From Ruminococcus sp. (GTDB lineage: Bacteria; Bacillota; Clostridia; Oscillospirales; Ruminococcaceae), in the NCBI GenBank assembly GCA_017626015.1, contig JAGAJO010000004.1, positions 1 through 46,712 of the forward strand: a stretch of 46,712 nt of DNA, read 5' to 3'. How positions within the stretch are numbered: the first letter of the stretch is position 1; every line of letters starts with the position of its first letter. A program made the translations under genes and the position numbers. This document shows, piece by piece, positions 4,421 through 33,274 of the stretch. Below the pieces are notes generated by a model. The model was not told where the DNA came from and searched no databases. It was given only the letters and a program-made list of their open reading frames with translations.

Positions 4421-4460
4421 TAAGGCTGTACAGCACAAACACTGTATGCTGACTGCCTTT
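4421..4460. repeat. 5' hairpin element M1
   Basis: AAGGCTGTACAGCACAA at the left differs from the family end AAGGCAATACCGCACAA at three positions. The right end GACTGCCTT is the imperfect inverted partner. It lies 25 nt upstream of the rubrerythrin start and abuts the ypeB stop. Confidence 0.5.
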
Positions 4461-4461
4461 A

Positions 4462-5799
4462 TTACTGTGCCAGAGTACCCGACTCGCTTTCGAGAAGTAT
4501 CATTATCTGTTCCTCCTCGCCTGTTTCGGCGTTGATATAAACAAGAACGTTCCTGCCGTTTTCCGCTTTGCAGGAAAATTCGTAGCAAAGGGTCTCTTCA
4601 AGATTTTTCGTGGGGATCACCGCAAGGCGGTGAGATACGATAGAAAGTCTGGGAGAAACAGCCTGTTCGGCACGGCTCTGGGGGTAAAGCTTTTCGGGAT
4701 AGCTGCGCTGGGTATGGTTTACAAGAAAGCCTCTGGCATCATAGCCGAGGATATCTCCGTTATCCATAGCTACGGACACCTTGACAAGATCGGGATAAAT
4801 GCGCTTGTCAACGTCCTTGTAGGCATAGTTTACGGTCAGAACGTTGTTCTGTATCTCATAATAGGTCTCCTCCATGGAAAGTATGCCAAGATAGTCAAGA
4901 AGCTCATCTGCTTTTTCCAGCGCCTTATCGGCGTCGAGCTTGCTTTTATCCACTACTCTCATTTTCAGAAAGTAGGAAATATATCCGCCCTGCTTTGTCA
5001 CCTCGCAGGTAACGGAGTTTTTTGCATCTGCGAACCTCCATGCAGGCATACTGCCGTCCACATCTTCGCTTTGGTAAAGATCGGTGGTGTTGACGTTGAG
5101 CGCCATTGCAGCCCTCTGCAAAGCCTTATCCTTGGAAACAGTCTGAGCGGAGGAGGTCATTTTCGGTGTTTTTTCAAGAATGTTATCGGAAAAAGGACCG
5201 TCGTAAATAAGACTGGGGTAATTGTCAAAGTTCTCCTCAAAGTCTGAAAATCCCTCAGTTACATAGGGCGGCTGTTCCTCGGACGCCGTTTTTCCGGCTT
5301 CGGTAAGAGTAAGCTCTCCGCTTGCAACGGAATTTTCAAGCTTCCACATATCTTCGGAAAGGGTCTTTGAAAAATCGTACAGGGCAGCCATGTTATCGTA
5401 CTCCTCCCGGGAGAGAGTTCCGCCGTCCATAAGCTTTCTTGACATGGCAAGAGAATAATTTCCCACCTGTGAAAGAAACTTATAGGTGTTTTCAAGATTC
5501 AGCTCTGCAACCGGAAGCTGCGCAAGAGCTGCCTTCGCCGACGCAGATTCACGGTAAAGCTCTGTCGCAAGACTTTGCTGCATTGCGCCAGAGCCTGCGT
5601 AAAGCTGCTTTTCCAGCGCTGCGGAAAGGCTGTCGCAGGAGGAGGCAAGCTCCTCTATGGCACGGGAATAATTGTACGTCACTGTCTGTCCGGCTTTCCT
5701 CGACTCGTTCATAAGCTGGACGTTTCTTACTCCCAGCGCCGCTATCGTGGCTGCGATAAGGGAACACGCCCTGATAAGTCCTCTGTTTGTAAAAGTCAT
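4462..5799 (-). CDS. ypeB: Spore germination protein YpeB
   Basis: YpeB-family protein. In Bacillus it stabilises and localises the cortex-lytic enzyme SleB in the spore envelope. It is 445 residues long with one N-terminal membrane segment (roughly residues 8-25), a helical YpeB domain, and C-terminal PepSY-like repeats, for example the stretch around KALQRAAMALNV and the final part ending in an NAETGEEEQI block. The start at 5799 is preferred over 5808 because AAAGGA sits nine bases from it but directly touches the earlier ATG. No sleB lies next to it, unlike the usual sleB-ypeB pair. A sigma-G-like promoter is at 5855-5883. Rubrerythrin follows on the same strand. Confidence 0.88.
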   Translation of the reverse strand: MTFTNRGLIRACSLIAATIAALGVRNVQLMNESRKAGQTVTYNYSRAIEELASSCDSLSAALEKQLYAGSGAMQQSLATELYRESASAKAALAQLPVAELNLENTYKFLSQVGNYSLAMSRKLMDGGTLSREEYDNMAALYDFSKTLSEDMWKLENSVASGELTLTEAGKTASEEQPPYVTEGFSDFEENFDNYPSLIYDGPFSDNILEKTPKMTSSAQTVSKDKALQRAAMALNVNTTDLYQSEDVDGSMPAWRFADAKNSVTCEVTKQGGYISYFLKMRVVDKSKLDADKALEKADELLDYLGILSMEETYYEIQNNVLTVNYAYKDVDKRIYPDLVKVSVAMDNGDILGYDARGFLVNHTQRSYPEKLYPQSRAEQAVSPRLSIVSHRLAVIPTKNLEETLCYEFSCKAENGRNVLVYINAETGEEEQIMILLESESGTLAQ

Positions 5800-5854
5800 T
5801 TCTATCATTCCTTTATATGATTTTTCTTTTTGATCTGCAAAATACCTTTATATG

Positions 5855-5883
5855 TATTTTGCCGGATATTGCAGAAAATATTC
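5855..5883 (-). promoter_or_regulatory. Sigma-G-like promoter of ypeB
   Basis: On the reverse strand GAATA (5883-5879), 17 nt, then CAAAATA (5861-5855). This resembles the forespore sigma-G consensus (GNATR, N17-18, CATNNTA) with one deviation in the -10. It overlaps a perfect 9-bp hairpin at 5837-5862, so it is only a suggestion. Confidence 0.4.
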
Positions 5884-5944
5884 ACAAAAGAAAAAGATAA
5901 AATTTAAATGTCTGCCAGCAGGAATATATTCCCATGATTTCAGA

Positions 5945-5986
5945 CAAAAATTCAGACGGCACGACCAAATCGTCATGCCGTCTGAA
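5945..5986 (-). terminator. Terminator of the zinc-ribbon membrane protein gene
   Basis: An 11-bp stem (TTCAGACGGCA at 5951-5961 with TGCCGTCTGAA at 5976-5986) is followed on the reverse strand by TTTTTGTC. It lies about 120 nt past the stop at 6104. Confidence 0.7.
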
Positions 5987-6010
5987 AATGTTAAGGAAAT
6001 GCCGATCAAT

Positions 6011-6043
6011 GTATCCCTTCCCGACTTAGGTGGGGAGGGATAC
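6011..6043. repeat. Pyrimidine-type intergenic hairpin (copy 2)
   Basis: GTATCCCTTCCC (6011-6022) pairs with GGGGAGGGATAC (6032-6043) with one mismatch; the loop is GACTTAGGT. Its sequence style matches the hairpins at 3151, 17823 and 36207. With the terminator and ypeB promoter it accounts for the roughly 300-base gap 5800-6103. Confidence 0.55.
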
Positions 6044-6103
6044 ACTGAATACGTTATCTGCGGGGCAGTGAATTTTAAAATGGCGATTTAATTAGCGCTG
6101 CCT

Positions 6104-6508
6104 TTATATCTTTACCTGAAATCTTGCCGAGCAGTTGGGACATTTTACGGTATGCACACCCTTTTGCTTGGGCAGGCGGAGTATTTTTTTGCACCCGGGA
6201 CATTTTACATAGCTGTTTGTCTTTCTCTCCCGCCACATTCTTTTAAGCAGACTGATTTTTCCCGAGATACTGTTTCCCAGCGGACGAAGCTTTGCACGGA
6301 GCTTTCCCTCTGCGGCAAGGAGCTTTCCGTTTCTGGGTAACATCATTCTGGCAAAAGCAAGTACGAAAAGCAGATAGACTATCCATTGCAGTACAGACGA
6401 ACGCACAAAAATATTGACTGCAGCGGCTGCCACTGCGGCTATGACGATATAACCGAAAAGTCTGTCCGCTCCGTAACGGCTCTGTATAAATTTCATTATC
6501 CTTGACAT
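6104..6508 (-). CDS. Membrane protein with C-terminal zinc ribbon
   Basis: Unassigned 134-residue protein. An N-terminal basic segment is followed by a hydrophobic hairpin of two membrane segments at roughly residues 18-55 (GYIVIAAVAAAAVNIFV, then WIVYLLFVLAFARMML). After a basic linker comes a zinc ribbon with CPGCKKILRLPK and CPNCSARF, similar to MJ0042-type zinc fingers. The ribosome site GAGGG lies about seven bases upstream of ATG 6508. It probably has its own transcript, since a terminator follows and element M2 precedes. The zinc ribbon should face the cytoplasm if both termini are inside; function is unknown. Confidence 0.75.
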   Translation of the reverse strand: MSRIMKFIQSRYGADRLFGYIVIAAVAAAAVNIFVRSSVLQWIVYLLFVLAFARMMLPRNGKLLAAEGKLRAKLRPLGNSISGKISLLKRMWRERKTNSYVKCPGCKKILRLPKQKGVHTVKCPNCSARFQVKI

Positions 6509-6529
6509 AAAACGCCCTCCCTCGATATT

Positions 6530-6572
6530 TTACGGCAATACCGCATACTCATTGTGCTTGTATTGTCTTAAC
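6530..6572. repeat. 5' hairpin element M2
   Basis: TACGGCAATACCGCATA at the left and TTGTATTGTCTTAA at the right form imperfect inverted ends of the M family. It lies 22 nt upstream of the start codon at 6508. Confidence 0.6.
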
Positions 6573-6665
6573 TGTGTGTTAGTATAACCCCAAAATATTA
6601 ACTGCACATTAACTTTATCTATAAACCATAGTAACTCAGATGCACAGTCAGATCTTCCGCCGGAG

Positions 6666-6701
6666 CATAAAACGGCGGCAGGAGATCGCATCTCCCGCCG
6701 C
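6666..6701 (-). terminator. Terminator of the YbaK-type gene
   Basis: A 12-bp stem (6675-6686 with 6690-6701, one mismatch) around a CGC loop; on the reverse strand it is followed by CGTTTTATG. It lies about 55 nt past the stop at 6756. Confidence 0.7.
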
Positions 6702-6755
6702 ATTACCAAGCCTGTCCGAACATAAAGCCGCAAGGTATCCTGCACCTGCAAAGCG

Positions 6756-7250
6756 TTATTTGACCGTGATATCGCCGAATGAGCCGCCGGTGACCTTTAA
6801 CAGATCCTGCGGAGCCAGCATTATCTGAGAACCCAGCCGTCCTCCGCTTATAATGATCTCCTCAAGCCCGGCGGCGCTTTCGTCCACCACCGTGACGTAC
6901 TGTTTTTTCATTCCCACAGGGGTACAGCCCCCTCTTATATATCCTGTGACCTTATTTATATCCTTGACATGGAGCATTTCCACAGATTTTTCACCCACAG
7001 CCTTTGCCGCCTTTTTCATATCAAGCTCGGCGTTGACCGGTATGGCGAAAACATAATAGCTGCCGCTTTTTCCCGAAGTGACCAGTGTTTTGAATGAGGA
7101 CTCATACGGCTGACCAAGCATATCTGCAATATGCACACCGTCGATAAATTCTCCGCATTGGTAGGTGTTTACACGATAGCTTATTTTGCTGCGGTCAAGT
7201 ATCCTCATAGCGTTGGTTATAACGTCCTTTTCCTTTGACGGTTTTCCCAT
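6756..7250 (-). CDS. ybaK: YbaK/EbsC-type aminoacyl-tRNA deacylase
   Basis: Cytoplasmic trans-editing enzyme of the YbaK/ProX superfamily; the best known member removes cysteine from mischarged Cys-tRNA(Pro). The 164-residue length is normal. Diagnostic stretches are TLVTSGKSGSYYVFAIPVNA with the conserved region containing a lysine, YIRGGCTPVGMKKQ (the GGxSP-like substrate loop, here with cysteine) and the C-terminal GGRLGSQIMLAPQDLL. It lies 13 nt downstream of the cytidylate-kinase-like gene, so the two are probably co-transcribed from the promoter at 7939-7967 and end at the terminator near 6675. Specificity for Cys-tRNA is family inference. Confidence 0.92.
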   Translation of the reverse strand: MGKPSKEKDVITNAMRILDRSKISYRVNTYQCGEFIDGVHIADMLGQPYESSFKTLVTSGKSGSYYVFAIPVNAELDMKKAAKAVGEKSVEMLHVKDINKVTGYIRGGCTPVGMKKQYVTVVDESAAGLEEIIISGGRLGSQIMLAPQDLLKVTGGSFGDITVK

Positions 7251-7263
7251 TTCTTCACCGCCG

Positions 7264-7857
7264 TTATCTGGACGCCTGAACGGTAAGGGCTATTATCTCA
7301 GCACACATATCGAAGCCAAGCTTGCCGCTGTCAAGGCACATATCGTAGCTTGCCTTCTCGCCCCACTTCTTGTTGGTGTTTGCGTTGTAGTAATCCCCGC
7401 GCTTTTTATCGTACTTCTTAAGGCGGCTCTCAACCTCCTCCGGCGGAATGTGATGCTTATTCAGCGCTGCGTCCATACGCTTTTCAAAGGACGAATAAAT
7501 AAACACGTCCAGCGTTCTCACCGTATTTTTAAGGATAAAATCCGCACATCTGCCTACTATCACACAGTCCTCCTGCTTAGCAAGCTCCTGCACTACCTCC
7601 GTCTCGGCGGCAAAGATCTTTTCGGTAATATCGTCACGCTCTCTTCCGAAAAGTGCAATAGGCGTTTTCATGGGATTCAGAACCGACTCCTCATATTTTT
7701 TTATCTCGTCCATGGAAATACCGCTGCGTTTTGCAGCCATTTCGATTATTTCCCTGTCATAGCATTTTACCCCCAGCTTCTGAGCCGTCATTTTTCCGAT
7801 ATCGCTGCCGCCCGAGCAATAATGCCTGCCGATAGTAACTACCCTGATACCTGCCAT
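7264..7857 (-). CDS. Cytidylate-kinase-like family protein
   Basis: A 197-residue P-loop protein of the cytidylate-kinase-like family (the group separate from housekeeping Cmk). The N-terminus VVTIGRHYCSGGSDIGKMTAQKLG resembles the nucleotide-binding loop, and YDREIIEMAAKRSG follows as in these kinases. The middle contains CVIVGRCADFIL, and RMDAALNKH lies in the lid region. Family members are predicted to phosphorylate nucleosides or nucleotides, but the substrate is not established. The gene has a near-perfect promoter (7939-7967) with hairpin M3 in its leader, and it leads a two-gene unit with the YbaK gene. Confidence 0.88.
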   Translation of the reverse strand: MAGIRVVTIGRHYCSGGSDIGKMTAQKLGVKCYDREIIEMAAKRSGISMDEIKKYEESVLNPMKTPIALFGRERDDITEKIFAAETEVVQELAKQEDCVIVGRCADFILKNTVRTLDVFIYSSFEKRMDAALNKHHIPPEEVESRLKKYDKKRGDYYNANTNKKWGEKASYDMCLDSGKLGFDMCAEIIALTVQASR

Positions 7858-7890
7858 GTAATATCTCCCTCTTTCTTTGCTGTCTCAACG

Positions 7891-7930
7891 TTTATTGCAA
7901 AACCGCCGTCAGACGGCTTTGTGTACTTCT
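7891..7930. repeat. 5' hairpin element M3
   Basis: TTATTGCAAAACCGCCGTCAG followed by ACGGCTTTGTGTACTTCT. The core matches the interior of the long copy M6 (CCGCCTGACGGCTTTGTGTA). It lies 34 nt upstream of the start at 7857, and its upstream edge coincides with the transcription start predicted from the promoter at 7939-7967. Confidence 0.55.
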
Positions 7931-7938
7931 ATAATTAA

Positions 7939-7967
7939 ATTATAGTCCTTTGCCTGCCGATTGTCAA
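7939..7967 (-). promoter_or_regulatory. Sigma-A-type promoter of the cytidylate-kinase-like gene
   Basis: On the reverse strand TTGACA (7967-7962), 17 nt, TATAAT (7944-7939). Both hexamers match the consensus perfectly. Confidence 0.85.
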
Positions 7968-7989
7968 TTACACATTTATTACAAGTCGG

Positions 7990-8030
7990 CAGAGTAAAAA
8001 TGAGATCCGCAGCGCTTTGACACTGCGGAT
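7990..8030 (-). terminator. Terminator of the gerA-gerB-gerC operon
   Basis: A perfect 13-bp stem (ATGAGATCCGCAG with CTGCGGATCTCAT) around a short loop, followed on the reverse strand by TTTTTACT. It lies about 145 nt past the gerC stop. The rest of 7968-8179 holds AT-rich sequence with no supported gene. Confidence 0.8.
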
Positions 8031-8179
8031 CTCATTTTAAGGAAGTTTAGAAAAAATATATGAAGAAAAAAATATGAAGTTATCTCTTTCGAGATGTCTA
8101 TATAATAACAGCCGTTTGTGATAAGCTTGTGAACATAGCAAGTAAATTTAGAAAAATTGTTTTTTATCAAATATCGACA

Positions 8180-9409
8180 TTATTCAACTCTTACTTTTAC
8201 ATCAGTTTCAAAATCAATGGCTCTGTATATATCGTCAAGGCTGTCCTGATACCTGATATAGGTACGGGGATATTCATGACGCAGAAGCTGCCAGATCCCC
8301 ACAATATCCGTGCCGTTTTTTCTGAGAGCCTTATCCTCCGCCGCCTTGAATATCCGCTGAAGCTCGTCTGCGATCTCCCCGGACAGCTCCTCCGACTCCG
8401 CAGACGAACGCAGATTTTTGTTGGCGTGGGCGACGACGGTAATATCGGCTTTATAGCTTATTCTGCCGTCCTTTATTTTCAGATCTGTCTTTATTTTGTC
8501 CCGGGTGAGCATAACGTTTATAAGCTCGCCACTATGCTTTACGATCATATCTCCACGTTCCGCCCGTCTTGTGAGCCAAGCCACACCCTGAGCCTCATCG
8601 CTGTCGAGAGTGTCCTCAAGCACCTTGCCCTCTTTTATAAGGGCAGTGGAGCTTACGGATACCTGCGGCTCCGATGAACCTTGTCCCTCCTGCTGCTCGG
8701 AGCTGCCCTGCTGCTCTTGCTGCTGTCCTTGCTGCTGTCCTCCTTGCTGTTCCGCTTGCTGACCGGAACTACCTCCTTCGCTGCCCTCCGACTGCTCCTC
8801 CACCGAAAGAACGGGCATTGCAATATGCTGAGGAGTATTCACGCATGAAAGGAAATCCAGCATTTCGCATTTTATCGCAGTAGAATTTTCCGCATTTGTA
8901 TCTATGATCTTTTTCAGAGCCTCCGCAGACGTTGCTCCACGGGTCATCTTGGCATTCATAATATCCTCTGCGGTTGTTTCGCTAAGACAGAGATCCACGC
9001 CGAGATAAACATTCTTATCAGCCAGAGTGAAGCGGAAAAGATCTTCGGGATCGGAAAAATCGATATCCCTGTTAAAGCAGATAAGCTGGAGATGACCCAG
9101 AAAAGCCTCCCTGCCCGTTTTATAGCTTGCCTTTTTTATAGCCTCGGTGATGGTCTTGCCTTCGCCGGAAATTACCTCCACGTTGGGCTGACTGGGGTCT
9201 ATCGGAGTATCGGAGCCTGCTCCCGACGATTTAAAGATCTGCATACTGACCTTGTAGCCGCCGTCCTCCGACGGATCTATACCCATAGCGTGGACAAGCA
9301 TTCTGTCGCTTATGTTTGCGGTTTTTCCGAAGGCGGAAAACAGCAGCGATATTCCCAGAACCGTTACAAGAAGATATATCTTTATATTATCAGCCGAGCT
9401 TTTTCTCAT
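8180..9409 (-). CDS. gerC: Ger(x)C-family spore germination protein
   Basis: C subunit of a germinant receptor; the family is usually a lipoprotein attached to the outer face of the inner spore membrane. At 409 residues it has the normal length. One hydrophobic segment lies at residues 11-27, then VHAMGIDP and FLGHLQLICF, typical of GerC N-terminal domains, and a C-terminal GerC domain. Two oddities are visible. The hydrophobic segment ends in LLFSAFGKTANISDR with no cysteine, so no lipobox is apparent. Residues about 206-246 are a Gln/Gly/Ser-rich low-complexity stretch inserted between the domains. The gene overlaps gerB by 20 nt and ends at a strong terminator. Confidence 0.9.
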   Translation of the reverse strand: MRKSSADNIKIYLLVTVLGISLLFSAFGKTANISDRMLVHAMGIDPSEDGGYKVSMQIFKSSGAGSDTPIDPSQPNVEVISGEGKTITEAIKKASYKTGREAFLGHLQLICFNRDIDFSDPEDLFRFTLADKNVYLGVDLCLSETTAEDIMNAKMTRGATSAEALKKIIDTNAENSTAIKCEMLDFLSCVNTPQHIAMPVLSVEEQSEGSEGGSSGQQAEQQGGQQQGQQQEQQGSSEQQEGQGSSEPQVSVSSTALIKEGKVLEDTLDSDEAQGVAWLTRRAERGDMIVKHSGELINVMLTRDKIKTDLKIKDGRISYKADITVVAHANKNLRSSAESEELSGEIADELQRIFKAAEDKALRKNGTDIVGIWQLLRHEYPRTYIRYQDSLDDIYRAIDFETDVKVRVE

Positions 9410-10487
9410 TTTTCTCCTTACCTCCTTTTCTGCATATTATCATCAGCAAAACCGGAACAGCCGCCGTCAGGATCACTATCTGCCATGCTCCGCCGTCGCT
9501 GTAGGCAAATCTCTCCCAATTATGAGGAATCAGGAAAAACAGCGAAGCTGCCGCAGGAACGGCTCCCGCAGCGGCTGCGGAGGTAAAGCGTGAAAGCGAC
9601 GGAAAAAGATTGCGCAGACATTTTGCCCCGCAGAAAATATACGCCGAAAGCTTGACAACAGCAATAATGACCCAGACAAACATAAAAAGTCCGTCGAAAC
9701 GCTCGATGATACCTGTCTGTGAGTATGCTGCCAGCGAGAAGAAGGGCAGCCTTGCCAACTGTACATAATCCCCCAGTATCACTGTTATGAGGAAAAGTAT
9801 AAGCTCCAGCACGATTATTTTTACCGCAAGGAAATACCATGCGGCACGGGAGATCGGCATATCCTTTTTCCCTTTGGAAGCATCAAGCTCCGACATGAGG
9901 AATACAAACAGCACCAGAGAACCGTTACGGGAGAATTCGGCTTTCACACAGCTGAAGATCAGATCGGTAATGTTTTCCTCGGCAAAGTGGAAATTTGTAA
10001 AGTAAAGATCGCTTATAGAGCCGCATACCACCATAACGGTCATTATGATAAAGCCTGCCGACGCATATACGGCGGCTTTCCCCAGAACACTGATCTTCAT
10101 ACGGGCGATATAAACTGCCGCCAGGACCGAGCATATCACCGCCATTATTCTGGGAATGTAGCCGGTGAAATAATAATCCATAAAGTAGGAGAAATCCCCC
10201 ACAGTTATAAATGCGGAGAAAGCAAAATATACAAGATATAATGCCGATACGGCGTATCCGAGGACTCTGCTTTTCGACGCCGAAAGTCCGCAGGGATCCT
10301 CGCCGTTAAATGCATGGGCAAACACCGCCGCAGGCAGAAGTATCAGCGCCTGCAAAGCGGTAGAGATAACCGCTCCCAACATATACACTGCTGCATTTTC
10401 GTATGCAAAGGGAAAATAGGTCATTGTGGAAAAAAATCTTGCGCACAGCATTATCGACATAAGCTGAAAGGTCGTAAGCTTTTTCAT
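9390..10487 (-). CDS. gerB: GerB-family spore germination permease
   Basis: Membrane subunit B of a Ger germinant receptor, a member of the amino acid-polyamine-organocation transporter superfamily thought to bind the germinant. The 365-residue protein starts with the family-typical KLTTFQLMSIMLCARF and has about ten hydrophobic segments, such as VYMLGAVISTALQALILLPAAVF near residue 35 and IVILTAAVPVLLMIIC near the end. The gene lies 28 nt after gerA, with an AAGGAG-type ribosome site, and overlaps gerC by 20 nt, so the order A-B-C forms one operon. Germinant specificity cannot be inferred. Confidence 0.92.
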   Translation of the reverse strand: MKKLTTFQLMSIMLCARFFSTMTYFPFAYENAAVYMLGAVISTALQALILLPAAVFAHAFNGEDPCGLSASKSRVLGYAVSALYLVYFAFSAFITVGDFSYFMDYYFTGYIPRIMAVICSVLAAVYIARMKISVLGKAAVYASAGFIIMTVMVVCGSISDLYFTNFHFAEENITDLIFSCVKAEFSRNGSLVLFVFLMSELDASKGKKDMPISRAAWYFLAVKIIVLELILFLITVILGDYVQLARLPFFSLAAYSQTGIIERFDGLFMFVWVIIAVVKLSAYIFCGAKCLRNLFPSLSRFTSAAAAGAVPAAASLFFLIPHNWERFAYSDGGAWQIVILTAAVPVLLMIICRKGGKEKNEKKLG

Positions 10488-10515
10488 AGTAAAACTCCTT
10501 TCGGCGCAAATTTTG

Positions 10516-11997: not shown

Positions 11998-12031
11998 AGC
12001 CGCCGCCTTTCCGTATTCATCACTGAAAAGT

Positions 12032-12080
12032 AATTGCGCACCGCACAGAGACTTCTTACGGCTTTGTACGGTATTGCCTA
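12032..12080. repeat. 5' hairpin element M4
   Basis: AATTGCGCACCGCACAGAG at the left and TTGTACGGTATTGCCTA at the right are inverted ends of the M family, with ACGGCTTTGTA inside. It lies 35 nt upstream of the gerA start, and the predicted transcription start falls at its upstream edge. Confidence 0.6.
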
Positions 12081-12085
12081 AAAAA

Positions 12086-12115
12086 TATTATGCGTCAAAA
12101 TTTTTCGGCTATGCA
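12086..12115 (-). promoter_or_regulatory. Sigma-G-like promoter of gerA-gerB-gerC
   Basis: On the reverse strand TGCATA (12115-12110), 17 nt, CATAATA (12092-12086). This fits the forespore sigma-G consensus (GNATR, 17-18 nt, CATNNTA), as expected for germinant receptor operons. Confidence 0.65.
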
Positions 12116-12130
12116 AATTTTGCGGCAGCA

Positions 12131-12166
12131 AAAAGACGAACGCCGTCCCGAGGGATAGCGTTCGTC
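12131..12166 (-). terminator. Terminator of the GH5 gene
   Basis: A 9-bp stem GACGAACGC (12135-12143) with GCGTTCGTC (12158-12166), followed on the reverse strand by TTTTTGC. It lies about 45 nt past the stop at 12211. Confidence 0.8.
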
Positions 12167-12210
12167 CTGAATTTTTAAATTTTAAGCATTTTATTAAAGC
12201 TCAGCTGTTT

Positions 12211-13887: not shown

Positions 13888-13916
13888 TAACCATTCCTCC
13901 ATATCATTTATAAGTT

Positions 13917-15068: not shown

Positions 15069-15140
15069 CTGATTCTCCTGTCAGAACCTATATGGGCATC
15101 AAACCCGGCACACTGCACGTCACAAATATCCTTATTCAGA

Positions 15141-17074: not shown

Positions 17075-17103
17075 ATTATACTATATTAATCGGAAATTGT
17101 CAA
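17075..17103 (-). promoter_or_regulatory. Sigma-A-type promoter of ilvB
   Basis: On the reverse strand TTGACA (17103-17098), 17 nt, TATAAT (17080-17075). Both hexamers are perfect. Confidence 0.88.
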
Positions 17104-17130
17104 TATCCCGGCTTGTACGTCACACGGAGA

Positions 17131-17667: not shown

Positions 17668-17698
17668 TATTTATCTCTCCTTTAAGTTTATTCATTTA

Positions 17699-17965: not shown

Positions 17966-17976
17966 TGTAATTTGCC

Positions 17977-21832: not shown

Positions 21833-21848
21833 TATCATTATAGATGCA

Positions 21849-21883
21849 AACGGGCGAACGCTGTGTTCGCCCGTTGTTTTATT
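21849..21883 (+). terminator. Terminator between convergent genes
   Basis: A perfect 11-bp stem AACGGGCGAAC (21849-21859) with GTTCGCCCGTT (21865-21875), then GTTTTATT. It serves the upstream + gene, and the T-run overlaps the stop codon of the convergent gene at 21879. Confidence 0.85.
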
Positions 21884-22897: not shown

Positions 22898-23042
22898 ATA
22901 ACGTCACCTATGAAAGTTATATCATATTTTTGCTGAAACGTCAACCATATATTAGGAATAAAGTGAATGCATAACTAAATTTTGTATATTTCAGTTAAAA
23001 AGGCAGCGGCTGTTTGTTGAATTTGTAAAGACAGGTTCTGAT

Positions 23043-23082
23043 AATAAAAACGCAGGGAACGCTATCCAAAACGTTTCCTGCG
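23043..23082 (-). terminator. Terminator of the 23113-23928 gene
   Basis: Stem GCAGGGAACG / CGTTTCCTGC (one wobble) around a 10-nt loop, followed on the reverse strand by GTTTTTATT. It lies 31 nt past the stop. The rest of the gap 22898-23112 shows nothing else I can support. Confidence 0.75.
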
Positions 23083-23112
23083 CTTTAATTTTCAATAGGA
23101 TTTTTTTAAATA

Positions 23113-23928: not shown

Positions 23929-23954
23929 TTTTATCGTCCCTTCCATTGCTGTTC

Positions 23955-24000
23955 TTTAAAGCAATACCGCACACAATAGCTGTGATGTATTGCCTTTGAA
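23955..24000. repeat. 5' hairpin element M5
   Basis: TTTAAAGCAATACCGCACACAATAG at the left and TGATGTATTGCCTTTGAA at the right form the inverted ends. It lies 27 nt upstream of the start at 23928, within the leader transcribed from the promoter at 24023-24051. Confidence 0.65.
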
Positions 24001-24022
24001 CCTGTTATACGGCTCTTTATAA

Positions 24023-24051
24023 ATAATAATCCTTTTTTTTAATTATGTCAA
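24023..24051 (-). promoter_or_regulatory. Promoter of the 23113-23928 gene
   Basis: On the reverse strand TTGACA (24051-24046), 17 nt, TATTAT (24028-24023). Confidence 0.75.
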
Positions 24052-24058
24052 CGCTGAT

Positions 24059-27037: not shown

Positions 27038-27977
27038 TGGATTCTCCTTGATTCAGGTCGTCTTTTTTTACTATTTCCCGTATTATATACCTGGGACGCC
27101 GTTTTATTTCCTCGTAGATCTTTGAAATATAATATCCTATTATCCCTAGGCTGAACATAATTATGCTAGATGTAAGCAGCTGGAGTATGATGACTGTAGG
27201 AAAGCCAGCCTCGGAGTTGCCCCAGAACTTATTGTACAGAGTATCGATCCCCAGTATCAGCGAGATAATAAAGGTAATGACTCCGAACACGGTCACGATA
27301 TGCAGCGGTGCGGAGGTAAAGGAGGTTATATTGTTCACGGCAAACCTGACCAGAGACTTAAGGCTCCACTTGGACTCGCCTATCTCCCTGTCTGCGACGT
27401 CAAAATATACCCGCTCGGTATTAAAGCCTATCCAGCTCGACATCGCACGGAAAAATGTCAGTCTTTCGGGCATTTTATTGAGAGCATCAACGGCGGACCT
27501 GTCAAGGAGCTTGAAATCGGACGCCGCCTGCATATCAAGTCCGCTGGATCTGCCGATAAGCTTATAGAAGAACAGAGAGAACATTTTATACAGCGGGTTT
27601 TCCTTTCCTCTGCTGTTTTTTCTTCCTTCTACGATATCCACGCCGCCCTGCTCCCATATACGGTACATCTCAACGATGACCTCCGGCGGGAACTGAAGAT
27701 CGCAGTCAAGCAGCACGCACGCTTCCCCCGCAGCGACCTCCAGTCCGGCGAAGATAGCGCTCTCCTTGCCGAAGTTTCTGGAAAAATTAACGGCGGTGAT
27801 CCGGCTGTCGCTTACGGCAAGTCCGCTGATAAGCTCCCACGTTCTGTCAGACGAGCCGTCGTTGACAAAGACAAGCTCGTAATCTATACCGTTTTCCCTC
27901 AAAAGCTTTCCAACGACAGAGGCTGTTTTCTCAACGTTGCCCTCCTCGTTGTAGCTTGGAATTATAACTGAAAGCAC
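27027..27977 (-). CDS. GT2 family polyprenyl-phosphate glycosyltransferase
   Basis: Glycosyltransferase of the GT2, DPM1/GtrB/CsbB type, making a polyprenyl-phosphate sugar on the inner membrane face. The 316-residue protein begins SVIIPSYNEEGN with a nucleotide-sugar domain. ELVFVNDGSSDRTWELI follows, with the DxD-type motif LLDCDLQFPPEVI near residue 92, and ASDFKLLDRSAVDAL later. Two C-terminal membrane segments (near residues 233-250 and 262-285) follow. The start is GTG at 27977 with AGGAGAATCACA ahead. It lies directly upstream of and overlaps yfhO, matching the CsbB-YfhO pairing. The third partner, a GtcA-like flippase, is not in the window. Confidence 0.92.
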   Translation of the reverse strand: MLSVIIPSYNEEGNVEKTASVVGKLLRENGIDYELVFVNDGSSDRTWELISGLAVSDSRITAVNFSRNFGKESAIFAGLEVAAGEACVLLDCDLQFPPEVIVEMYRIWEQGGVDIVEGRKNSRGKENPLYKMFSLFFYKLIGRSSGLDMQAASDFKLLDRSAVDALNKMPERLTFFRAMSSWIGFNTERVYFDVADREIGESKWSLKSLVRFAVNNITSFTSAPLHIVTVFGVITFIISLILGIDTLYNKFWGNSEAGFPTVIILQLLTSSIIMFSLGIIGYYISKIYEEIKRRPRYIIREIVKKDDLNQGESNGK

Positions 27978-28011
27978 TGTGATTCTCCTGTTCCTTTTCT
28001 TTTTTATAAAG

Positions 28012-28045
28012 CAAAGTAAGGGACGCCAAAAAGCTGTGACGTCCC
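28012..28045 (-). terminator. Possible terminator after the GIDE gene
   Basis: GGGACG (28020-28025) pairs with CGTCCC (28040-28045) around a loop with AAAAAGC. The T-rich tract after it on the reverse strand is interrupted (TTACTTTGCTTT), so termination may be partial. Confidence 0.4.
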
Positions 28046-28060
28046 CCGTTGAAACGGATG

Positions 28061-28873
28061 CTATTTAACTATGCCGGCTATGACCATTATTATGCCTATG
28101 AGGGCAGCGGCGATACCTCCGAAAAGATACGTCTTAACAGCCGTCTGCTTGTTCTTCACAAGCTCCTCCTCGGATTTTGTCGTTACGATAAACGGCTTTG
28201 AATTATCACGAGGTCTGCCTATGTAGATCTGACCGTTTTCCATATACGCCTCTCCCAGAACATAGAGCCTCGAGAGCAGGGGAATGGTCTTTTCCACCTG
28301 CTTGTAGCCCAGAAGCCTGTACCCTGCGCCGTAGGAAAGCGTATACTCTCTGTAGCGGCGGCGGGGATTCATATACATATTGGAATTATACTGATCCGCA
28401 TTCTGGAATCTGTCCGTAGTTTTAAGCAGATCCAGCTTGTCGGCTGCGCCGTTGGTGTCGATAATAACTCTGTTTCCATTTGCGTCGGCGAGCAGCAGCG
28501 GCTCACCCGACTCCTCCTCGCTGAGCTTATCCTCATGCTTTACGGTCCTTGTACGGACATTTCCCTCGCTGTCCCTTTCCTGTCTGGTCTCCTCAGAGAC
28601 CTTATAGGTCACGGCTGTATAAAAAGCTACCTGCTTGCCGCTGTAGGGTGTTGTAGGAGGATTGTCGCAGGCGGCTGTACCCTTTACTTCTACAAGCTCA
28701 CGGTAATTGGGATCGATATCCGCCATAGCCTCAAGGGCTTCCTTTACCTCGGGAATACTTTTTGTCTCCTGAAACTGTATCTCAAGGAGATCTCCCGCAG
28801 CCTTTTTTCTGCCGAAGAAAACACAGTAAGCTCCGGCAGCTATAAGAATAATTCCTAAAATTACTAAATACAT
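28061..28873 (-). CDS. GIDE/BAM-domain (MULAN-like) membrane protein
   Basis: A 270-residue protein resembling bacterial members of the E3-ligase-like GIDE family (PF12483), related to the membrane-proximal domain of eukaryotic MULAN/MUL1. Two membrane segments lie at residues 2-20 and about 247-268. The intervening domain begins with ELVEVKGTAACDNPPTTPYSGKQVAFYTAVTYKV, which resembles the GIDE N-terminal part, and continues with RLYVLGEAYMENGQIYIGRP. No RING domain is present, so there is no reason to infer ubiquitin ligase activity. It follows pspA by 4 nt (28878 to 28873), suggesting translational coupling. Role in envelope stress is inference from context. Confidence 0.8.
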   Translation of the reverse strand: MYLVILGIILIAAGAYCVFFGRKKAAGDLLEIQFQETKSIPEVKEALEAMADIDPNYRELVEVKGTAACDNPPTTPYSGKQVAFYTAVTYKVSEETRQERDSEGNVRTRTVKHEDKLSEEESGEPLLLADANGNRVIIDTNGAADKLDLLKTTDRFQNADQYNSNMYMNPRRRYREYTLSYGAGYRLLGYKQVEKTIPLLSRLYVLGEAYMENGQIYIGRPRDNSKPFIVTTKSEEELVKNKQTAVKTYLFGGIAAALIGIIMVIAGIVK

Positions 28874-28877
28874 CCGA

Positions 28878-29546
28878 TCATTCCCCGCCGTTCATTTCAG
28901 CCATAAGTCTGGCAAGCTCATCGTCTACAGCGCTGTTCGCCTCAAGCTCCGCAAAGGGATCGGGAGCGTTGGAGGTACCTGCCAGATCGGAAAATGCGTC
29001 CGCCTGAGCCTCCTTGGACTCGATCTTCTCCTCCATTTTGTCAAGCTTGCTGAACGCACTTGAGGAATCCATATTGCCGAGAGTTTTCGCCATGCTCTTC
29101 TGGGCGTCCGCCATTTTGGAACGTGCGATAAGAGTGGACTGACGGCTTCTTGCCTCCTCCAGCTTCATCTTTAGAGCGTCCACCTGTCCCTTTATAGTGT
29201 CCACCTGAACTGTACACTGATCGTACATCTGCTGGTACTGAGTAACCTGATTATCCGCATTGACCTTTTTCTGGAGAGCCTGCTTTGCAAGATCCTGCTT
29301 GCCTGCCCTAAGAGCGAGCTTAGCCTTATCCTCCCAGCTCTTGGACTCAGCCTTAGCCTTATCCAGCTGCTTCTTCATCTGTCTCTGAGAACCCATTGCC
29401 TGACCCAGAGCGTCCGTACACTGCTGAAGCTCCTTCTCCATGTCGATAATTATCTGCTTGACCATCTTCTCAGGATTTTCCGCCCTGTCAAGAAGATCGT
29501 TGATATTCGACTTGATAAGGTCTCCTGTTCTCTGAAAAATTCCCAT
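28878..29546 (-). CDS. pspA: PspA/IM30 family protein
   Basis: A 222-residue PspA/Vipp1 (IM30) protein, which binds and stabilises membranes and forms ESCRT-III-like assemblies. The N-terminal MGIFQRTGDLIKSNINDLLDRAENPEKMVKQII is typical, followed by a long coiled coil from about residue 30 to 145 rich in Gln, Lys and Glu, with DALGQAMGSQRQMKKQL and LGNMDSSSAFSKLDKMEEKIESKEAQADAF after it. The C-terminal part ends in acidic DELARLMAEM. A good AGGAGG site lies before the ATG. It is part of the 31045-to-28061 unit with a GIDE-domain protein and two membrane proteins. No PspB, PspC or PspF is nearby. Confidence 0.95.
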   Translation of the reverse strand: MGIFQRTGDLIKSNINDLLDRAENPEKMVKQIIIDMEKELQQCTDALGQAMGSQRQMKKQLDKAKAESKSWEDKAKLALRAGKQDLAKQALQKKVNADNQVTQYQQMYDQCTVQVDTIKGQVDALKMKLEEARSRQSTLIARSKMADAQKSMAKTLGNMDSSSAFSKLDKMEEKIESKEAQADAFSDLAGTSNAPDPFAELEANSAVDDELARLMAEMNGGE

Positions 29547-29598
29547 AGCTGTTTCCTCCTGTTGATTTTAATTTATTTGAATACAGACGGCACGAAGA

Positions 29599-30354
29599 TC
29601 AACCGCCATTCTTATTCTCCGAATCGTATTTTTTGTTGCTGTCGGCTCTCACCTTATTGAACGAATACACCGTCATTACAGCAAACACATAAAGGGTTAT
29701 TTTACTTATGGCTGCAAAAAAGCCGAAAAAGCTTTGTACGCCCGAGATCGGCACAAGCCTGTTTACAATGTCGCATACGAGATTGACGACGGTACACAGG
29801 GAAGCCCTGTTCAGTGCGGCTCTCAGTCTGTACACCTCTGATTTGTTGTTTACAAACCTTACGGAGCTTACGGCGTTTCTCTCGTTTGTAACGATAAATC
29901 TCACCGCAAGATCCAGAAGCGCCAGCGACGCAAGGGAAACAGCCGTTCCCATAATGCAGCTTACGACATTTGAGATCCATGCAGGTGGCTTTGCAAGATC
30001 AAGCGCAAGGCTTAGTCCGGCGGCGCAGGCGCACAGTAAAACGCAGAGCTTTGTTCTGCCCTTCATATATTCCAGCACTGAGATCCTCACCGAGCCGTAA
30101 TCGGGTATATCCTCATTCCGCTCTGAAGGATCTGCGCAGGCTGCTATCATAAGCTTTTCCAGCGACCTGCCTATATTACGCTGCGGGATGCTCAGCTTCT
30201 CGGATCCCCGCCGCTGGATCCTGCAAAGCTGCTCCAGCTCTCCGAGACCTGCGAGAAACAGGACAAAGCCTGCAAGCTTGCAGATATAATTGGCTGTCCA
30301 GCCGAGACTAAGCTGAAAAAGCATAAACAGCGACGCCAAGCACAAAAAATTCAT
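29599..30354 (-). CDS. Hypothetical polytopic membrane protein
   Basis: Unrecognised 251-residue protein with hydrophobic stretches near residues 1-35, about 100-120 (LCVLLCACAAGLSLALDLA), about 130-155 and 205-230 (ISGVQSFFGFFAAISKITLYVFAVMTVYSF). It lacks a visible ribosome site: the ATG is preceded directly by the right end of the long element M6 (TTGCCTTAA then ATG). The true start may therefore lie further in, or the original translation signal may have been displaced by the insertion. It sits between the 31045 gene and pspA on the same strand and is probably co-transcribed. Confidence 0.65.
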   Translation of the reverse strand: MNFLCLASLFMLFQLSLGWTANYICKLAGFVLFLAGLGELEQLCRIQRRGSEKLSIPQRNIGRSLEKLMIAACADPSERNEDIPDYGSVRISVLEYMKGRTKLCVLLCACAAGLSLALDLAKPPAWISNVVSCIMGTAVSLASLALLDLAVRFIVTNERNAVSSVRFVNNKSEVYRLRAALNRASLCTVVNLVCDIVNRLVPISGVQSFFGFFAAISKITLYVFAVMTVYSFNKVRADSNKKYDSENKNGG

Positions 30355-30356
30355 TT

Positions 30357-30537
30357 AAGGCAACACCGCACAACCACCGCCTGACGGCTTTGTGTACGTC
30401 TTGCTTGCATATTTTCCGTCATATTACCCAAATTCTCCTTGACATACGTCAGTATGCCTGCGTCGAATTCAGGCAATCTGACGTAAAATCTGACTGCGCA
30501 ATACGCACACAATGGTCGTGCGGTATTGCCTTAAACC
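30357..30537. repeat. Long element M6, miniature transposable-element-like
   Basis: About 180 bp with terminal inverted ends TTTAAGGCAACACCGCACAA at the left and GTGCGGTATTGCCTTAAA at the right. Next to the left end is ACCGCCTGACGGCTTTGTGT, the core shared with M3 and M4. No ORF with a ribosome site is inside. It lies between the stop at 30539 and the start at 30354 of two genes in the same unit. Confidence 0.75.
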
Positions 30538-30538
30538 T

Positions 30539-31045
30539 TTATTCCTTCTTTTTTCCGCCCTTGAAAAGAGTTTTTATAAGCAGTCCCGCTCCTGCGGCGA
30601 TCATACCGAACATAAGGACGTATACATACAGCGAACTTCTTACCGCATGGAACGTTATAGACGTAAGCAGCGATATGACTATGACAAGCAGACCGAGAGC
30701 GCAGACAAATCCGCCTATGACCTTTTTATCCAAAAAAAACAGCAGACCGATACCTACCAGCAACGGGATAAGCATAACGCCCATGGGCATCCTCATACCG
30801 AACAGACTCCAATATCCGCTGCCCCATGTGCTTGATACGGTAAATGAATTCAGCACCCAGTAAATACCGCCGCCGAACAGCAGAAAGCCTATAAAAAACT
30901 GAAGCAGCTCATGATCCGACGAGCCTGTCACGTTTGCTCCGTCACGCTTTGCCGGCTCGGTCCTGTTCATGACCGGCTGCGTGTCGGACATCTTAGATCT
31001 GATCTCGTTTTCCAGTCCGGCAAGCTCCTTATCATAATTCTCCAT
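30539..31045 (-). CDS. Hypothetical membrane protein, first gene of the PspA unit
   Basis: Unrecognised 168-residue protein. An N-terminal helical charged part (about residues 1-45: MENYDKELAGLENEIRSKMS...) is followed by about four membrane segments from residue 48 (LLQFFIGFLLFGGGIYWVL, then GMRMPMGVMLIPLLVGIGLLFFL and onwards) and a lysine-rich end GGKKKE. The second of two ATGs (31045) is chosen because GGAGG lies nine bases ahead. It is the first gene after a near-perfect promoter (31141-31169), with hairpin M7 in its leader, and it should head the unit that includes pspA. Confidence 0.75.
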   Translation of the reverse strand: MENYDKELAGLENEIRSKMSDTQPVMNRTEPAKRDGANVTGSSDHELLQFFIGFLLFGGGIYWVLNSFTVSSTWGSGYWSLFGMRMPMGVMLIPLLVGIGLLFFLDKKVIGGFVCALGLLVIVISLLTSITFHAVRSSLYVYVLMFGMIAAGAGLLIKTLFKGGKKKE

Positions 31046-31071
31046 GGTCATTCTCCTCCCTCTATAAATCA

Positions 31072-31117
31072 AAGCGACACCGTACAAAGCCGTCAGGCGG
31101 TCTTTATGCGGTTATTT
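31072..31117. repeat. 5' hairpin element M7
   Basis: AAAGCGACACCGTACAAAGC then CGTCAGGCGGTCTTTATGCGG. Its ends resemble AAGGCAACACCGCACAA of M6, and the inner GCCGTCAGGCGGT is the reverse complement of the M6 core. It lies 27 nt upstream of the start at 31045 and downstream of the promoter at 31141-31169. Confidence 0.5.
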
Positions 31118-31140
31118 ATTTTATGAATTATTATAAACAT

Positions 31141-31169
31141 ATTATAAAACATTTTCTCCCTGTTGTCAA
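31141..31169 (-). promoter_or_regulatory. Sigma-A-type promoter of the PspA unit
   Basis: On the reverse strand TTGACA (31169-31164), 17 nt, TATAAT (31146-31141). Both hexamers match the consensus. Confidence 0.85.
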
Positions 31170-31374
31170 CACCTTTTTTTGCATATGTTTTCCCGCCGAT
31201 AGGGCGTTTTTATGGAATTTACACAAAACGGGCGGCTTTGCGAATACGCTTTGACAAGCCGCAGTTGACGGTATGCAATCGAAGGTTTACGGCGGGCGCA
31301 GTTATTTTCTATCTGTTGTTGAAAGTTACAAAAATGACAGCTGAATATAGTACTTATCACCAAATAAAAAAGGA
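31170..31374. other. Intergenic region between divergent promoters
   Basis: Sequence between the PspA-unit promoter and the lipoprotein promoter. I see no ORF with a ribosome site and no clear RNA structure. With the promoters and M7 it makes up the 423-base gene-free stretch. Confidence 0.5.
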
Positions 31375-31403
31375 TTGATTTTTATCGGGAAATAATGTAT
31401 AAT
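31375..31403 (+). promoter_or_regulatory. Sigma-A-type promoter of the lipoprotein gene
   Basis: TTGATT (31375-31380), 17 nt, TATAAT (31398-31403). The -35 region TTGATTTTTA is shared with the promoter at 32053. Confidence 0.75.
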
Positions 31404-31468
31404 TGTAATAGAAGTAATAGAAAACATATACGGTCCCGGTACGGACCTGGCAAACGGGAGTGACAAAA

Positions 31469-32011
31469 TTGAATAGACTCATCACGGCGGCGATCCTTTC
31501 CGCCGCAGGTGTACTGTTTCTGTGCGGCTGCGGACGAGTGGACGTAAACGCAATAACAAAACGAAGCACCACAACTGCTGATATGTCCTCGGAGACGGAA
31601 AGCCATATTGACGATACATCGTCAAACACGGACACATCTTCCGGTACGGACAGCAGTAAGGGAGAAGTCAAAAAGACCACAAAGAAAACCTCAAAAAAGA
31701 AAAAGAAGGATTCGTCTGCCGCTGAAACGGAAGCAAACGGCAGCGTTTCCGCGCCTGTTTACACCAATATATACAGCGGCACGGACTACGGCACGACTGC
31801 GGGCGGAGGACAGGATGCGAACACGACTGTCAAGCCTCCGCAAAGTCAATTTTCGGATACTCAGCCGCCCGACACGGATCCTCCGGTGACACAGCCGCCC
31901 CAGACTCAGCCGACGGACCCTCCGCCTCCCGAGCCTACGCAGCCGGTATACACAGATCCCCCGGCAACTGAACCTACCGCTCCCCTGCCTACTATGGATA
32001 TAGAATGGTAA
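31469..32011 (+). CDS. Pro/Thr-rich lipoprotein
   Basis: A 180-residue predicted lipoprotein. The lipobox FLCGC follows a hydrophobic signal (MNRLITAAILSAAGVLFLCGC). The mature protein is low complexity: Ser/Thr-rich with a KKTTKKTSKKKKKD lysine block, then a C-terminal half dominated by PPDTDPPVTQPPQTQPTDPP-type proline/threonine repeats. This looks like an unstructured surface or wall-spanning tether. The start is taken as TTG 31469, because GGGAG lies eight bases ahead; a GTG at 31460 would touch that site. It is followed by the FemAB gene with a separate promoter. No enzymatic domain is visible. Confidence 0.75.
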   Translation: MNRLITAAILSAAGVLFLCGCGRVDVNAITKRSTTTADMSSETESHIDDTSSNTDTSSGTDSSKGEVKKTTKKTSKKKKKDSSAAETEANGSVSAPVYTNIYSGTDYGTTAGGGQDANTTVKPPQSQFSDTQPPDTDPPVTQPPQTQPTDPPPPEPTQPVYTDPPATEPTAPLPTMDIEW

Positions 32012-32052
32012 AACGGCAGAGCCGGAATGCGGTGTTTTGTGAAAATGTACTA

Positions 32053-32081
32053 TTGATTTTTACTGGACATTGATATATAAT
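32053..32081 (+). promoter_or_regulatory. Sigma-A-type promoter of the FemAB-type gene
   Basis: TTGATT (32053-32058), 17 nt, TATAAT (32076-32081). TTGATTTTTA here matches the lipoprotein promoter at 31375. Confidence 0.75.
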
Positions 32082-32119
32082 AGTTATTGTTTGATCAAAT
32101 ATTCGGAGAGGATAAAATA

Positions 32120-33220
32120 ATGGAAATAATAAACAAATCAGATAAAAAACTGCTGGAGGAATACGAAGAATTTACCAAGGGCAGCAAATACGGAAACTTC
32201 ATGCAGTCCTTAAAATGGCCGAAGGTCAAGGACAACTGGGGCTGGGATGCCGTTATATCAAGAAATGCGGACGGCAGTATCAGAGGCACCTGTCTGGTGA
32301 TCATAAAGAAGATACCGATTTTCGGCTGCACATTCCTTTACGCTCCTCACGGTCCGGTATGCGACTGGAGCGACAGGGAGGTAATGTCGGATCTGTTCGA
32401 GGGCATAAAGGTGCTGGCAAAGAAATACAAGGCTTATCAGTTCATGTGGGATCCTCCCTTTGAGGAAAGCGAGGAGGAACGCTCGAGGATCATCAAGGAT
32501 ATGGGATTTTCGCATATCGACAATGCGCCCGAGCTTACCACGATACAGGCAAGAAACAACTATATGCTGAGAAACATAGAAGGAAAGACGCCGGACGAGG
32601 TAATGATGACCTTTAAGCCGGATTGGAGAAACAGGATAAGAAAGGCGGGCAGAAAGGGCGTTTACTGCAAGGTGTGCGGTACGGAGGCTCTGGACGATTT
32701 CTATCCGCTTATGGAGGCTACCGGCATAAGAGACGGATTTTCCATAAGGGGCAAGGAATATTTCGTGAAATTCATAAACGGACTGGGTCCCGAGCATTGC
32801 CGTCTTTTTATGTGCTATGTTGAGGAGGACGGCAAACAGATACCTCTTTCGGGTGCGGTAACTACCCAGTATGCCGGCAAGACCTGCTATGTATACGGAG
32901 CATCGGCGAACCACCACAGAAATCTTTATCCTAATTATCTTATGCAGTGGACAATGATAAACTGGGCGATAGAGGGTAAAAACTACATTTACGATTTTCA
33001 GGGCATACCCTTTTACAAGGACGAAACCAACCCTAACTACGGCGTATACAAGTTCAAGAAGGGCTTCAACGGCGAGGTAGTGACCTATGCGGGAGAATAT
33101 TTCTATATATTCAAGCCGTTTATGAAAAAGATAGTGGATCTATGTGAAAAGATCGTAATGGGCATACACGAGAGAAAGCGTCAGAAGCTGCTGAAGGAAA
33201 GAAACAAAGATATGCAGTGA
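32120..33220 (+). CDS. FemA/FemB-type peptidoglycan bridge aminoacyltransferase
   Basis: A 366-residue FemABX-family protein with two GNAT-like domains, which transfer amino acids from aminoacyl-tRNA to the lipid II stem peptide. Family-typical regions are FMQSLKWPKVKDNWGW near the start, FMWDPPFEESEEE near residue 105, NWRNRIRKAGRKGVYC (here DWRNRIRKAGRKGV), and the second-domain GASANHHRNLYPNYLMQWTMINWAI near 260 with YDFQGIPF after it. The start at 32120 follows GGAGAGGA; an earlier in-frame ATG lacks a ribosome site. Amino acid added and position in the bridge are not deducible. It precedes a FliB-like gene. Confidence 0.9.
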   Translation: MEIINKSDKKLLEEYEEFTKGSKYGNFMQSLKWPKVKDNWGWDAVISRNADGSIRGTCLVIIKKIPIFGCTFLYAPHGPVCDWSDREVMSDLFEGIKVLAKKYKAYQFMWDPPFEESEEERSRIIKDMGFSHIDNAPELTTIQARNNYMLRNIEGKTPDEVMMTFKPDWRNRIRKAGRKGVYCKVCGTEALDDFYPLMEATGIRDGFSIRGKEYFVKFINGLGPEHCRLFMCYVEEDGKQIPLSGAVTTQYAGKTCYVYGASANHHRNLYPNYLMQWTMINWAIEGKNYIYDFQGIPFYKDETNPNYGVYKFKKGFNGEVVTYAGEYFYIFKPFMKKIVDLCEKIVMGIHERKRQKLLKERNKDMQ

Positions 33221-33234
33221 CGCTTGGAAAAGGG

Positions 33235-33274
33235 TATAGGCAATACACACAATGGTTGTGCGGTATTGCCTATA
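33235..33274. repeat. 5' hairpin element M8
   Basis: TATAGGCAATACACACAATG at the left and TTGTGCGGTATTGCCTATA at the right form clear inverted ends flanked by TATA. It is 40 bp long, lies 34 nt upstream of the start codon at 33308 and fills most of the gap after the FemAB gene. Confidence 0.7.

Follow-up and report, generated by a model that had tools for sequence, protein, structure and literature searches.

The window analysed here, a stretch of 46,712 nucleotides from a Ruminococcus sp. genome (contig JAGAJO010000004.1), carries eight elements, M1 to M8, of which M2 to M8, and perhaps M1, are very probably copies of a family of non-autonomous miniature inverted-repeat transposable elements (MITEs) spread by an IS5-type insertion sequence (IS), not a shared regulatory signal. 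The family is a new IS5-type MITE family, ordinary in kind, with an instructive decay route. An earlier note on this DNA had described the eight elements as short hairpins placed just upstream of unrelated start codons and had offered two readings of them, a mobile miniature element with a strong site preference or a shared RNA element of the 5' untranslated region (5'-UTR). We found all eight in the window sequence at the positions and with the sequences given there, and their repetition is real: with at most two mismatches, GGCAATACCGCA matches the window 16 times (3.2 expected), and with at most three, the core GACGGCTTTGTGTA matches it 18 times (3.4 expected); none of 100 shuffles reaches either count. 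The mobile miniature element is borne out by the inverted termini, the target duplications of 4 bp, a relative in which one site is uninterrupted, and an IS that has these ends too, while the preference for start codons turned out to be half of a two-sided pattern.

A family of miniature elements with duplicated targets

Members of the family end in GGCAAYACCGCACAA terminal inverted repeats and are flanked by a 4-bp target duplication, most commonly TTAA and otherwise TATA, TTTA, TAAA or CTAG. Pairing such ends by script gave 55 two-ended copies from the window's own genome, in 458 kb made up of the window and 70 further stretches, of which 19 measure 33 to 35 bp, nine 46 to 63 bp and 16 159 to 195 bp; the remaining 11 are of other lengths, and several of these are probably mispaired. 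By end pairing these copies span 33 to 242 bp, and the longest with intact ends and a duplication has 195 bp, leaving no room for a transposase. Terminal inverted repeats, target duplication, small size, multiple copies in relatives and ends in common with an autonomous element together place the family among the MITEs.

The duplication is clearest in the long copies. Exact 4-bp duplications flank 12 of the 16 own copies of 159 to 195 bp, compared with 4.9 after swapping flanks (0 of 5,000 shuffles as high), and duplication lengths of 3 and 5 bp fit none and one of them, respectively. Copies in relatives behave alike, with exact 4-bp duplications at 41 of 52 and lengths of 3 and 5 fitting one and none; the duplication is present at 35 of 42 copies of 70 to 260 bp (23.0 with swapped flanks) and at six of ten shorter ones (1.9). 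Five duplications in the window's genome and six in relatives are TTTA or TAAA, direct repeats that are not self-complementary and must thus be true duplications and not a mere extension of the inverted repeat. Long MITEs of about 160 to 195 bp also have, near each end, part of the terminus repeated in inverted orientation, so that each end can fold into a hairpin of its own.

The family is abundant in the window's genome (G000; 2.42 Mb in 28 contigs), where the 13-mer end GGCAATACCGCAC has 38 exact sites (none for the reversed control) and the end motif at up to one mismatch has 96 (one for the control); a 206-bp query taken from a full copy gives 62 hits at E<=1, some of them overlapping or inverted hits to the ends. 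An 18-mer end (up to one mismatch) occurs in 12 of 29 genomes of the genus, including that of the window. A scan of named genomes returned 66 stretches, mainly from rumen Ruminococcus and Clostridia metagenome-assembled genomes and from Ruminococcus sp. YE71, whose examined loci reach about 74% DNA identity at best, plus a few single matches in unrelated taxa whose number is about that expected by chance according to our estimate. Many assembly contigs (CAMNBY contigs such as L066, L067 and L069, and several of genome G019) stop inside near-identical copies of the element, which probably reflects recent spread and helps to fragment assemblies. Literature searches found no paper containing the 13-mer end sequences and none that links Ruminococcus albus to an insertion sequence, a transposase and an inverted repeat; for Ruminococcus with MITE or IS5 family, none of the matches listed mentions Ruminococcus.

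An uninterrupted site in a relative suggests that M6 was inserted. The nearest relative by two proteins searched (genome G014; 79% and 68% for these proteins, with syntenic genes 38 to 93% identical) has an uninterrupted CTAAATGAATTTT in the orthologous gap, where the window reads TTAA, the element and then TTAAATGAATTTT. All five G014 gaps that are readable, orthologous to those of M1, M4, M5, M6 and M7, lack the element (M2, M3 and M8 lie outside this comparison). Promoter-like -35/-10 pairs that precede M5 and M7 are, by eye, present in G014 as well, without the element.

A putative partner insertion sequence

An IS with the same ends is complete in two genomes of the genus, where a search with contig-end sequence from the window's genome recovered four two-ended relatives of 1,102 to 1,106 bp, three in genome G002 and one in G004. 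Their target duplications (TTAA, CTAA, CTAA and CTAG) all fit YTAR, the duplication motif of IS5 according to an excerpt of PMC10359306. In the two copies whose open reading frames (ORFs) were read, the ORF encodes 322 amino acids, and both proteins, the two that were scanned, match the NCBIfam model NF033581 IS5_4 with 301.6 and 287.2 bits (cut-off 140) and Pfam DDE_Tnp_1 at 3.9e-29 and 5.9e-26; the protein is an IS5-family DDE transposase. The IS resembles insertion sequences of the IS5 family in its transposase, its length of about 1.1 kb, its short terminal inverted repeats and its 4-bp YTAR duplication. The ten relatives of the transposase listed from plasmids are 42.7 to 43.0% identical, among them the ISXfu2 family as a named relative (42.7%); there are at least 5,000 plasmid relatives in all, and the 5,000 counted all lie below 60%.

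Traces of such an IS are also present in the window's genome. At their ends, contigs C6 and C7 carry this terminus and, behind it, a promoter-like stretch and the beginning of an ORF (MNSRIQTSIFGDAFQNAKTNKKQFLEKM); contig C14 opens with the opposite end of an IS of this kind. These IS ends are 78 to 83% identical. MITEs of subfamily B have 15 to 16 end bases identical to those of the IS and no longer match, and those of subfamily A agree in 13 to 15 of 14 to 16 end bases. The transposase of this IS, or a close relative, would recognise the MITE ends, and ordinary DDE transposition would move the elements into AT-rich 4-bp sites.

Facing family ends 0.7 to 4 kb apart in the loci sampled were considered as a possible autonomous element. 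Two such pairs have TTAA on both sides (L117 and L131), but each proved to be two separate MITE copies; the L117 ORF has no Pfam match, and ORFs in L044 and L005 look unlike transposases by eye. Separately, one IS copy in G002 (L217, 1505-2610) splits an ORF whose apparent continuation comes after it and which resembles a DNA methyltransferase gene (NPPY motif).

Proposed collapse into short hairpins

The inner, inverted copies of the terminus offer a route from the long MITEs to the short forms. We computed, from two parents only, the products of deletions between direct repeats of 5 to 8 bp that the inner copy shares with the opposite end; the parents of 173 to 195 bp yield 33, 34, 35, 46, 55 and 70 bp, lengths that 24 of 28 short own copies match. 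Such a deletion, for example by slippage, would remove the middle of the element and leave a hairpin of 33 to 55 bp made almost wholly of ends, and most copies in the window look like collapsed remnants of this kind.

Relatives carry their own versions of the short forms. Three species whose long copies have CATTGTGCG instead of CATTGTGTGCG each have a short copy of 33 bp (L061, L079 and L113); the short copy in L031 also has 33 bp, and no long copy was seen in that genome. In genome G012 (L201), copies of 35 and 46 bp bear the CTATTG and CTACCGCCTAACG variants of that species. Among ten short copies in relatives, four differ from the 33- and 35-bp forms (46, 55, 60 and 68 bp), only the 46-bp one having been compared with a parent. 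Since short copies carry the variants of their own species, several lineages seem to have produced short forms independently, either by collapse in place through slippage or during transposition. That the forms of 33 to 35 bp are themselves still mobile, which would put them among the smallest conceivable units transposable by a DDE enzyme, or that the lineage-specific collapse is driven by transposase instead of slippage, strikes us as quite improbable.

Several observations weigh against the origin that we propose for M2 to M8. Across all 55 own pairs, just 22 duplications are exact (about nine expected by swapping), and the class of 33 to 35 bp has five in 19 (3.1 by swapping, P 0.12). Movement is suggested by the uninterrupted orthologous site of M6 in another species, and no transposition was observed. 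The whole IS was not found in the window's genome, whose contigs lack its middle, and family searches there with PF01609 and PF13546 returned no match; the MITE 18-mer has no match in G002 or G004, the two genomes with the complete IS, and a complete IS did not turn up in the remaining relatives that bear the MITE. Complete IS and MITE were thus not found together in any relative, which slightly lowers our confidence. Moreover, 21 of 63 exact MITE duplications (TATA, TTTA and TAAA) fall outside YTAR, setting the MITEs, besides their lack of autonomy, apart from the IS5 family; together with the separate occurrence of IS and MITE, this suggests that a sister IS may be the actual mobiliser, so that the mobilising element may be a relative of the IS found. 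The collapse rule was devised after the lengths were seen; it fails to predict four short own copies (48, 48, 50 and 63 bp), and for three of five copies of 33 to 34 bp, the 35-bp product gives a better alignment than the product of their own length. Finally, G012 has elements of 92 and 171 bp in the leaders orthologous to those of M5 and M8, 22 and 34 nt 5' of the starts, though flanks and lengths differ, and for this reason we read them as independent insertions.

Placement between genes

The sample for placement comprised 60 copies, of which two lie inside called genes and three at contig ends, where one side has no called gene, leaving 55 intergenic ones; the sampled stretches were chosen for holding copies, and the distance bins were picked after a first look. 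Genes were called with our own codon-usage script. In the window, these calls agree with the start codons of the earlier note for M1, M2, M3, M5, M7 and M8 and put those of M4 and M6 further downstream, so that their distances are off; a list of ORFs from the first possible start agrees for M2, M3, M4 and M6, and the start behind M6 is also backed by an ATG conserved in G014.

The enrichment before start codons is real: 19 of the 55 copies lie 15 to 45 nt before a start, compared with 7.3 expected over all gaps and 12.4 within the same gaps (P 0.014). The association with stop codons is at least as strong, since 30 of 55 copies have a stop no more than 30 nt away (7.9 expected over all gaps; 20.1 within the same gaps, 0 of 3,000 as high), and convergent gaps, which hold no start, contain 12 copies where 5.4 are expected, next to 33 in co-directional (35.6) and ten in divergent gaps (14.1). 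Within co-directional gaps, the copy is nearer the start than the stop in 14 of 33 cases (16.3 expected), no excess over chance. A second test with plausible 4-bp targets held fixed, which counts 56 copies through a slightly different mapping and uses target-site weights set by us, gave 26 copies at 0 to 30 nt past a stop (7.8 expected), five overlapping the stop codon (0.8), and 21 at 10 to 45 nt ahead of a start (11.9); at distances above 100 nt upstream of the start there are only 11 (24.6).

Enrichment at stops and starts together with the far-upstream deficit means that copies shun the middle of gaps and far-upstream positions and hug both gene borders. A location just 5' of start codons therefore does not hold as a general rule in the sampled genome, and neither does a strong site preference for start codons: across the stretches sampled, the copies are enriched before starts and at least equally common after stops, the latter being half of what the earlier note had named as a refutation, and the pattern first seen in the window is one half of a two-sided one, exaggerated by a small window. 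Purifying selection against insertions into promoters and ribosome-binding sites would explain the hugging of borders, and TAA and TAG stops inside the preferred targets may add to placement on the stop side. Insertions would survive where they are least harmful, either between promoter and ribosome site or directly past the stop, which would account for the apparent start-codon placement.

RNA structure and alternative origins

Among alternatives to MITE insertion and decay, the one that survives best, though we regard it as unlikely, is a mobile element that was later exapted, its short hairpins being kept as stabilisers of mRNA ends or leaders in the manner of 3' hairpins of the repetitive extragenic palindromic (REP) type. 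It would fit the hugging of both borders, the excess near stops above chance within the same gaps, and M1 and M6, which fill nearly their whole gaps. We analysed stems in 14 ungapped 35-bp copies against 500 shuffles, with relatedness uncontrolled. Pairing is high (90.8% of cells), but the shuffled mean of 89.3% (12 of 500 as high) indicates that it is inherited from the inverted repeats, most changed pairs were altered on one side or broke, and tolerance of insertions alone could produce the same placement.

A shared 5'-UTR RNA element that stabilises or regulates mRNA and is selected before start codons, the second reading of the earlier note, is very improbable in our view. It would account for the start-side excess in both placement tests, for the promoter-like sequences seen by eye ahead of several window copies and for the copies that G012 has ahead of the two genes preceded by M5 and M8 in the window. 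Stem pairing, the number of further pair types (21 of 500 shuffles) and the covariation score (9 of 500) also exceed most shuffles. The association with stops and convergent gaps is, however, stronger than that with starts, the readable G014 leaders lack the element in place of conserving it, and Rfam at gathering scores, consulted for a conserved RNA family, gave no match. Covariation is weak as well: just two pairs have changes at both positions, a number that 63 of 500 shuffles reach, and one of the two is a T/C difference between subfamilies that both ends of a copy inherited. Inverted ends of related copies can yield such covariation without selection on RNA, and weak RNA selection may act on the stems.

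Movement of the elements as palindromes of the REP or bacterial interspersed mosaic element (BIME) type by a Y1 transposase (IS200/IS605; REP-associated tyrosine transposase, RAYT) acting on hairpins can hardly be right, even though hairpins can form in the short copies and at either end of the long ones and no search for a Y1 transposase was made, given that their terminal inverted repeats and 4-bp target duplications, features untypical of Y1 elements, are shared with a DDE-transposase IS.

The short copies nevertheless look much like REP/BIME palindromes, which are intergenic hairpins of roughly 35 bp, and differ from them in ends and target duplication. Other bacterial MITEs, namely Chunjie, Correia, RUP and QMITE2, resemble the family in size, inverted ends, duplications and mostly intergenic location, and QMITE2 occurs chiefly in 3' untranslated regions and Correia chiefly immediately upstream of genes, as far as an excerpt of PMC10969869 describes them. 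What sets the present family apart is that 19 of its 55 own copies have only 33 to 35 bp, consist of two ends and have sizes explained by direct-repeat collapse, a feature for which other MITEs were not searched. Apparent regulatory hairpins thereby become the history of a mobile element, a caution against calling repeated hairpins in front of genes RNA elements. The family also illustrates a possible decay of MITEs in which inverted partial copies inside both ends permit collapse, apparently per lineage, to REP-like hairpins of 33 to 35 bp, and other genomes could be examined for the same passage from IS to palindrome.

Elements of the window and further repeats

M2 to M8 match the family at a level that only 0 to 3 of 1,500 random 60-mers attain (a null that contains a few unlisted copies, with M6 scored through its two ends), and their unity as one family stands; M1 is perhaps either a decayed copy or an unrelated hairpin. 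The description as short hairpins does not suit M6, a full element of 172 bp that takes up almost its whole gap, and at least one terminus is not intact in M3 and in M7. M1 and M6 also begin 1 to 8 nt past the preceding stop.

Table 1. Family elements and target duplications in the window.
Feature	Position	Strand	Observations
M1, weak, decayed 34-bp hairpin, membership uncertain	4424..4457	-	8/1,500 random 60-mers as high; between stop 4462 and start 4396
M2, short copy, right-end collapsed type	6532..6567	+	exact GGCAATACCGCA at 6534-6545; 3/1,500 random 60-mers as high
M3, partial copy of left-end hairpin type, lacking one terminus	7897..7925	+	exact GACGGCTTTGTGTA at 7912-7925; 3/1,500 random 60-mers as high
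M4, ~50-bp copy, left-end collapsed type, one end decayed	12029..12078	-	terminus GGCAATACCGTAC at 12066-12078; absent from orthologous G014 gap
M5, 35-bp copy, right-end collapsed type	23960..23994	-	nearest predicted 35-bp collapse product; absent from orthologous G014 gap
Target duplication TTAA, low side of M6	30355..30358	.	single uninterrupted site CTAAATGAATTTT in G014
M6, full-length 172-bp MITE	30359..30530	+	83% identity over query 6-201 of 206, E 7.6e-56; both termini; TTAA each side
Target duplication TTAA, high side of M6	30531..30534	.	
M7, decayed copy, left-end collapsed type, closest to subfamily B product	31074..31111	-	1/1,500 random 60-mers as high; absent from G014 orthologue
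Target duplication TATA, low side of M8	33235..33238	.	read from sequence
M8, 32-bp copy, right-end collapsed type	33239..33270	+	exact GGCAATACCGCA at 33259-33270
Target duplication TATA, high side of M8	33271..33274	.	read from sequence

M6 lies 3 to 4 nt 5' of a start codon that is kept in G014 and separates the gene from the sequence that precedes this start there. The predicted fold of the M6 region (-99.9 kcal/mol; window 30355-30534) could return the old site AAGGAATAAAGG to the side of the ATG. In G012, several family fragments lie side by side 5' of one gene (L201, 5040-5400), which suggests an insertion hotspot.

Two further repeats accompany the family. One, with ends GGAAATGCTGATTAA (window 5995 and 19898; L150, L154, L159, L162, L165 and L170), often has TTAA or TAA before it and sometimes abuts an element of the first family. 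The other, of about 150 bp and ending in CAGCCTGTCGAAAAAGTC, occurs at 53-201 and 3617-3744 of the window, at 3293 of L152 and in L013, and the two copies in the window share 93% and 95% identity over two stretches.

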